Of a stretch of 64,000 nt of DNA, positions 201-342 are shown piece by piece (position 1 is the first letter of the stretch; every line of letters starts with the position of its first letter). Both the position numbers and the translations under genes were made by a program. The DNA is taken from positions 2,480,001 to 2,544,000 of the forward strand of contig NZ_JAANIJ010000001.1 in assembly GCF_011174705.1 (NCBI RefSeq), read 5' to 3'. Under the pieces are notes generated by a model. The model searched no databases, was not told the origin of the DNA, and saw nothing but the letters and a program-made list of their open reading frames with translations. Source of the DNA: Tessaracoccus coleopterorum. Lineage in GTDB: Bacteria > Actinomycetota > Actinomycetes > Propionibacteriales > Propionibacteriaceae.

Positions 201-269
201 ATGATCCGCCTGACATCACGACGCAGCGTCGACTACATGAGGGTCTCCAGCGCCCTGTGTCGCGGTTGA
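201..269 (+). CDS. Putative cysteine-responsive leader peptide (22 aa) upstream of TauE/SafE permease
   Basis: A short ORF starts with ATG six bases after a strong ribosome binding site (GGGAGG at 190-195). It encodes MIRLTSRRSVDYMRVSSALC followed by Arg-Gly and a stop. The pattern of basic residues, then VD, then RV.SA.CR just before the stop matches the small actinobacterial peptides annotated as putative leader peptides upstream of sulphur-assimilation genes. The only Cys codon lies three codons before the stop. The next gene is a sulphur-type permease at 343. I infer translational or attenuation control by cysteine supply. The ORF is too short for most gene callers. Confidence 0.6.
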   Translation: MIRLTSRRSVDYMRVSSALCRG

Positions 270-298
270 TGCCGTCGCCCGCACCGACACCCCGTGCA

Positions 299-323
299 GC
301 GGACGACCCGTCCAACCGTCCGC
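299..323 (+). promoter_or_regulatory. Candidate attenuator hairpins between leader peptide and permease
   Basis: Bases 299-305 (GCGGACG) pair perfectly with 317-323 (CGTCCGC). A competing smaller hairpin pairs 301-305 with 309-313. The two are mutually exclusive. They sit between the leader peptide stop (269) and the permease start (343), where a ribosome stalled on the leader could affect folding. No U-tract follows, so a translational rather than a transcriptional switch is more likely. This is an inference from pairing alone. Confidence 0.35.
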
Positions 324-342
324 GTACACCCCAGGACCTCCC

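Follow-up and report, generated by a model that had tools for sequence, protein, structure and literature searches.

We propose, with a probability of about 0.7, that the short open reading frame at positions 201-269 of the window (the whole stretch of 64,000 nucleotides from Tessaracoccus coleopterorum analysed here; all features located between 169 and 1265 are on its forward strand) encodes a leader peptide on which ribosomes would stall according to the supply of cysteinyl-tRNA, switching on the TauE/SafE (TSUP) permease gene behind it when that supply is short. With sufficient cysteine, the ribosome would pass the single UGU codon, stop two codons later and leave, and the naked leader RNA would keep the permease gene off; with too little, it would wait at the UGU (258-260), and the permease would be made. 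The proposal is built on sequence comparison, that is, on the conservation of the peptide, the sulphur genes in its company, the restriction of its conserved cysteine codon to UGU and the C-rich linker behind it. From these we infer that the leader is translated, that the ribosome stalls, in which direction stalling acts and how the gene is turned off. The first-pass annotation had suggested a cysteine-sensing switch made up of a cysteine-type leader and a pair of hairpins in front of a sulphur-anion permease. The leader and its place before the permease stand, being kept in relatives, where such leaders also head sulphur operons; the hairpins do not stand as the switch.

Leader and permease gene of the window

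The reading frame runs from the ATG at 201 to the TGA at 267-269 and encodes 22 residues, MIRLTSRRSVDYMRVSSALCRG, with the ending SSALCRG that had been annotated; it contains exactly one Cys codon and no Cys run. Its ribosome site is as strong as claimed: a Shine-Dalgarno (SD) sequence, AGGGAGG, lies at 189-195 with a spacing of 5 nt to the ATG, and the leader therefore looks SD-led rather than leaderless. Further upstream, at 169-174, a TTGACT was picked out by eye as a candidate promoter or operator element; it also precedes the leader in two related genomes (G084 and G095) and in Tessaracoccus bendigoensis, that is, in four Tessaracoccus-like loci counting the window (again by eye). We saw no matching -10 element by eye, and a sigma-70 scan of positions 1-1500 returned no site. 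Over the collected leaders, TANNNT is found just upstream of the start codon in 43 of 140, whereas a control position 20 nt farther upstream gives 5 of 140. An Rfam search of 1-1500 gave no plausible family.

The peptide resembles the NCBIfam model NF042934 ("putative leader peptide", cis_reg_atten) in its motif, its length and its place before a gene on the same strand. It is a short ORF with a DxxRxxSAxC-type end and a gene 3' of it on the same strand, and it scores 21.8 bits (E 1e-4), below the curated cut-off of 27 bits. In a genome-wide search with the same model, the leader position ranked second (E 0.0057) among the eight places listed with E <= 10. Note that NF042934 is independent of the data gathered here, and that the E of 2e-9 which the window peptide reaches with our own profile of 11 peptides is circular, because the peptide is a row of that profile. 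Judged by its sequence, the window peptide belongs with the cysteine leaders of actinobacteria (NF042934), as a form with a single Cys and a score below the cut-off. A second leader in the same genome, MEQFFSRPWVDLRRQASAMCCR, lies 5' of a broken gene that by eye resembles an SDF-family symporter; an SDF-family symporter is also found behind a leader in G095.

Cysteine leaders as such are known. Polycysteine leaderless sORFs of mycobacteria were reportedly described by Canestrari in 2020. A polycysteine leaderless attenuator of the M. smegmatis type has a run of Cys codons and a leaderless start, and the next SD is masked unless a ribosome waits at the Cys codons; its expression responds to a limited supply of cysteine. 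The window leader is like the polycysteine sORFs and the models NF042933 and NF042936 in having a Cys codon near the stop and a place before sulphur genes, although its HMM matches to these two models are weak (18.7 and 15.7 bits; cut-offs 45), and it differs from the sORFs in having one Cys rather than a run and in being apparently SD-led rather than leaderless. Compared with a polycysteine run, a single Cys codon would be a weak sensor, which speaks against a stalling leader.

Cys leaders without terminators, as short ORFs before cys operons, were described for Mycobacterium and Propionibacterium acnes in 2005 (PMC1262725), and Cys-rich uORFs in mycobacteria in 2015 (PMC4633059). The 2005 leaders share with ours the short ORF before cys genes and the absent terminator; they differ in having runs of Cys codons, and in the part of that paper covered no permease is among their targets. 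The uORFC-8-2 of Rhodobacterales cysS (PMC8632094) is likewise a cysteine-codon uORF attenuator with Cys codons in a stem, but it has an intrinsic terminator and tandem Cys codons in which UGC dominates, whereas the present leaders have a nearly invariant UGU. Among the Streptomyces lividans leader peptides listed in the part of PMC8079986 covered, there is no cysteine leader. The window adds a new member, which has one Cys, an SD and a TSUP target.

The annotated TauE/SafE permease is borne out. Its gene starts with the ATG at 343, preceded by an SD (AGGA) at 333-336, and the translation of 343-600 matches PF01925 with E 2.7e-17 and 63.7 bits, compared with a gathering score of 32.6, which places it in the TSUP family; the piece 602-1265 gave no match in a Pfam scan. 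The gene (343-1265) is broken near 600: it is open in one frame over 343-648 and then continues in another to 1265, and the permeases of relatives have longer open frames. The break is probably an assembly indel, since the completeness score of the genome is 60.9% and cysI is found in it as four separate matches. Frame breaks were seen in the permease, in a holB-like gene near 1400 (1273-2400) and in cysI (G000:C1:932375-934018, G000 being the genome of the window), and together they suggest an indel-rich assembly. Between 2700 and 3400 the window also holds repeated coding units of the type AQWVEPVADEPVVEQEPAPEAEAVGE in one reading frame.

The substrate had been called unknown, and this can be softened. 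In 11 loci of the family the same permease ends a cysI-cysH-cysD-cysN operon, as CysZ does, which suggests a CysZ-like uptake of sulphate or sulphite. The C. glutamicum CysZ belongs to the TSUP family (PMC1266029; PMC5840216) and is encoded last in cysIXHDNYZ; a mutant in cysZ cannot grow on low sulphate or on sulphite, whereas thiosulphate supports its growth (PMC1266029). We therefore consider the permease, by analogy of operons, as probably a CysZ-type sulphate/sulphite uptake permease. The likeness is one of gene order and family, and the window differs in that its permease is outside such an operon and apart from the cys genes. Judged by eye, the permease of the window has tmk- and holB-like genes on either side, and the same holds in G084, G095 and T. 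bendigoensis. In G000, G084 and G095, cysI and cysN are found at a place separate from the permease, and a regex scan recognised no leader 5' of cysI in these three genomes (G000 has indels).

Distribution of the leader and the genes behind it

The motif DxxRVxSAxC is found upstream of TSUP genes in close relatives and, patchily, elsewhere. It lies directly 5' of the same permease in G084, G095, G133 and G051, in T. bendigoensis, and in Gordonia, Geodermatophilaceae and Saccharopolyspora. A search with the permease N-terminus matched 49 of 147 genomes of the family, at 51 places. At five of them the leader directly adjoins the permease (G000, G084, G095, G133:C134 and G051); these five leaders are part of the search profile, which was built from 11 peptides including that of the window. 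At 11 more places, all outside the profile (G054, G143, G139, G133:C51, G128, G020, G056, G011, G052, G082 and G057), a leader lies 4.8-6.3 kb 5' of the permease on the same strand, and tblastn gave the order cysI-cysH-cysD-cysN-permease behind the leader in 11 of 11. Note that the operon queries were taken from L210, L209 and L201, so that some of these matches are self-hits; Pfam backs the sulphite reductase (L210), an EF-Tu-type GTPase fitting cysN (L201) and the permease (L201), while cysH and cysD were named by eye. At the other 35 of the 51 places we were not able to find the leader at either position at the threshold used, which counts against a stalling leader.

In named genomes, the leader directly precedes the permease in eight of 80 loci searched: T. 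bendigoensis (L059), Gordonia (L070), Geodermatophilaceae (L081, L088, L119, L127) and Saccharopolyspora (L107, L114). The best named match to the permease N-terminus is that of T. bendigoensis (92%). There the leader frame stays open past the permease ATG and terminates 28 nt into the permease gene, as in no other of 146 loci. A loose pattern matched 19 of 130 permease loci, of which 12 were judged leader-like and seven dropped (L042, L061, L074, L077, L094, L108, L116); with L059 added by eye, this gives the 13 permease loci used below. The leader profile itself matched 49 of 147 genomes of the family (E <= 0.02), nine of 149 genomes across the phylum (E <= 0.002) and 180 of 296 genomes of the class (E <= 1e-4), the last in 77 of 115 genera.

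To see which genes follow the leader, 30 of 69 usable loci were drawn at random and the downstream genes scanned with Pfam. Eighteen belong to sulphur-specific families: sulphite/nitrite reductase (11), Cys/Met PLP enzymes (2), cysteine dioxygenase-like proteins (2), and one each of PAPS reductase domain, rhodanese and PALP (CysK-like). Others are compatible and unspecific, namely two NMT1-type binding proteins, an SDF symporter, DUF4395, an FMN reductase and a flavin reductase; the rest are one DIOX_N, one Trans_reg_C and four genes with no Pfam hit. At L214 (G055:C44) a leader of the same kind precedes a Sulf_transp (TsuA-like) gene, followed by TusA.

Cysteine dioxygenase-like genes (PF05995) lie directly behind the same leader in eight of 12 loci (G018, G041, G059, G088, G098, G120, G135:C2 and G144; for example L152, L159 and L161). 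These do not fit a simple induction by starvation and weigh against the stalling leader: they pose a puzzle of polarity, because a cysteine dioxygenase should consume cysteine and is yet found under a starvation-type leader.

The conserved cysteine codon

The conserved Cys codon (258-260 in the window, with C as the next base), identified by comparison of the leaders as the proposed stall site, is TGT in every one of 65 leaders of distinct sequence. In a larger set, which shares some members with the first and whose Cys column did not enter the score, 142 of 143 leaders have TGT. Both Cys codons were permitted in the leader scans. The smaller set is given without L162 (no leader by that scan) and L188 (a duplicate of L172); the larger consists of 148 loci minus five without Cys at the scored place, namely L155 and L160 (score < 4, mis-placed) and L162, L172 and L304 (GTG, TGA and GGA). 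L172 and L304 have leader-like frames ending in RVCSAI, with the TGA and the GGA where the Cys codon would be expected.

On the other hand, the remaining Cys codons within the same leaders are TGC in 42 cases and TGT in 18, and those of the downstream genes are TGC in 127 and TGT in 12 of 139 (146 genes with script-set frames, before any filter for distance or SD). Fisher tests gave p 9e-65 against the downstream genes and p 6e-28 against the other leader codons; these values overstate the independence of the data because the leaders are related, although the class search did match 77 of 115 genera. The base after the codon is C in 122, T in 17, G in two and A in two leaders, that is, a pyrimidine in 139 of 143.

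We rejected a general nucleotide motif as the cause of the lock, as third bases vary at other columns. Nor does the lock look like a by-product of pairing with the SD: in-silico replacement of TGT by TGC changes the mean accessibility of the SD by 0.002 (sem 0.006, n=81), which points away from SD pairing and towards decoding. The third-base U is predicted to be paired with A in 42 and with G in eight of 81 loci and mostly unpaired in 31, and this leaves room for a local role in the RNA.

UGU is read by wobble via the tRNA with the anticodon GCA. Tentatively, the leader class may, throughout the actinobacteria, depend for cysteine sensing on a single UGU that is obligatory, read by wobble and embedded in a conserved peptide, so that the codon as well as the amino acid would be sensed and UGC would break sensing; in the four Tessaracoccus-like genomes, where the permease is apart from the cys operon, the leader would then control only the step of sulphur entry. 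We met no description of the UGU lock in the literature searched, which takes in part of the work on mycobacterial polycysteine sORFs.

Candidate off-steps and competing readings

The two hairpins flagged in the first-pass annotation, 299-323 and 301-313, can both be drawn (predicted -11.0 and -4.9 kcal/mol), and they exclude each other because both use 301-305. Their stability is ordinary: 14% of all 41-nt segments of the 64 kb match or exceed 290-330 in predicted stability. A longer predicted hairpin, 294-327 (-15.3 kcal/mol), includes 299-323 and excludes 301-313 as well as the leader-SD helix described below. The permease SD lies outside both flagged hairpins. We did not see the pair in G084, G095 or T. 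bendigoensis, and 294-327 is not among their best hairpins. In these three relatives the Cys codon is 58, 48 and 50 nt from the permease ATG, respectively (85 nt in the window). Among predicted hairpins of at most 45 nt in the stretch from UGU to the permease, the most stable one in each (-11.6, -11.1 and -13.5 kcal/mol) begins with the Cys codon or one base further in. We rejected the flagged pair as the switch on account of its ordinary stability, the uninvolved SD and the different place of the relatives' best hairpin.

In two of these relatives, G084 and T. bendigoensis, the predicted pairing is that of UGUC with GACA. Each of four orthologous loci (L009, L010, L011, L059) gives a predicted hairpin with the Cys codon at the base, and three of them show the UGUC-GACA pairing. 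In the minimum-energy fold of 201-372 of the window this hairpin corresponds to 257-290, with arms 257-265 and 279-290 and with 257-261 paired with 286-290; it encloses the leader stop. The short hairpins of greatest stability in the window are nevertheless those around the flagged region. As a candidate, the hairpin predicted at the Cys codon in these four loci is preferable to the flagged pair.

As for the off-step of the family, we place first an attenuation of translation in which the region of the Cys codon pairs with the downstream SD unless a ribosome sits there; we give it somewhat less than an even chance. Such attenuation has been ascribed to the cys genes of M. smegmatis (PMC13236596). 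In the window, a 12-bp helix is predicted by duplex between 254-265 (CCUGUGUCGCGG) and 320-335; it would include the UGU and the AGG of the permease SD, but hairpin 294-327 competes with it and the full fold disfavours it. In the 13 permease loci, cognate leader-SD duplexes are better than permuted pairs (p 0.001), with strong helices in L010, L059, L107 and L114, while four of the 13 (L070, L081, L013, L036) are no better than mid-rank, which argues against masking. A filter for distance and SD reduced the 146 loci to 92, of which 82 are non-redundant; note that, except for the 13 permeases, gene starts were assigned by script, and that two of five checks found the script in error. Over these 82 loci none of 5000 permutations reached the cognate sum (mean cognate -13.8, non-cognate -12.6). 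The advantage of cognate pairing is located about -27 to +27 nt of the Cys codon (n=49), and against synonymous recoding it is weak (mean z -0.23, sem 0.12).

When a ribosome footprint was masked in the predicted folds (results given without L088 and L127), the mean gain in SD accessibility was +0.056 at the codon, +0.044 at -15, +0.035 at +15 and +0.027 at -45; for the 68 loci with room for all offsets it was +0.041 at the codon, +0.040 at -15 and +0.031 at +45. Gains above 0.1 were obtained in 26% of loci at the codon and in 21% at -45. With the Cys codon masked, the SD becomes clearly more accessible in L059, L107, L114, L011 and also L036, despite its duplex being no better than mid-rank, and there is little or no gain in L010, L013 and L081; in the window the predicted accessibility falls from 0.72 to 0.42. 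The effect is thus small on average and not sharply placed, a modest tendency of the family to which the window runs contrary. We lowered our estimate for SD masking because the masking control is not sharp, and the fold of the window speaks against it.

In second place, and possible at somewhat lower odds, is Rho-dependent attenuation in the manner of tnaC, an example of a leader that acts through Rho. Here Rho would load on the linker after translation of the leader and halt transcription before the permease, and a waiting ribosome would hinder it. The linker at 270-330 has 30 C, 15 G, 10 A and 6 T, the C-rich, G-poor stretch after the leader that is looked for in Rho-dependent leaders; an equally large difference between C and G occurs in 1.6% of 61-nt segments on either strand of the 64 kb. 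All of 78 linkers contain more C than G (on average 47% C and 26% G; linkers < 25 nt were dropped from the 82 loci), whereas this is true of 41% of the stretches 5' of leaders, and the excess starts right after the leader end. Between -80 and -14 of permeases, the mean C-G is 0.18 with a leader (n=11, 10 positive) and 0.038 without (n=89; p 6e-5), loci whose match began late being left out (among them L119 and L127 of the 13 leader loci). A scan of 1-1500 found no intrinsic terminator, that is, no terminator hairpin with a U-run, and Rho was suggested for the mycobacterial cys leaders in 2005 (Seliverstov 2005, PMC1262725). On the other hand, a ribosome at the UGU would cover little of the 61-nt linker, and the linkers of G084 and G095, with 46 and 36 nt, are short for a Rho site. 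The C-richness suits Rho, or it may merely keep the RNA unstructured.

Potentially, the ribosome could be held by the nascent peptide instead of by a hungry codon, through the conserved residues D, RV, SA and C. The effector would be cysteine or some other sulphur compound, and the polarity could reverse at some genes. We regard this as unlikely, though the leaders before cysteine dioxygenase-like genes would fit it, and residues far from the Cys are kept (D in 141, R in 142, S in 124 and A in 112 of 143) that a counter of codons would not need; this conservation is partly due to selection, because the search profile and the scoring used those residues. It is very improbable that the frame is a translated but unregulated uORF or is kept for coupling alone, given the conservation, the sulphur context and the UGU lock, even though linkers vary and the leader frame of T. 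bendigoensis runs into its permease.

With cysteine-dependent stalling on the leader as the preferred reading, the uptake of sulphur anions by a poorly characterised permease family would be tied to the supply of cysteine, the substrate being a guess from operons. The surprising feature is the UGU lock, which gives a way to probe what is measured by a leader that senses starvation: should the codon be the sensor, a synonymous change from UGU to UGC would be expected to matter.
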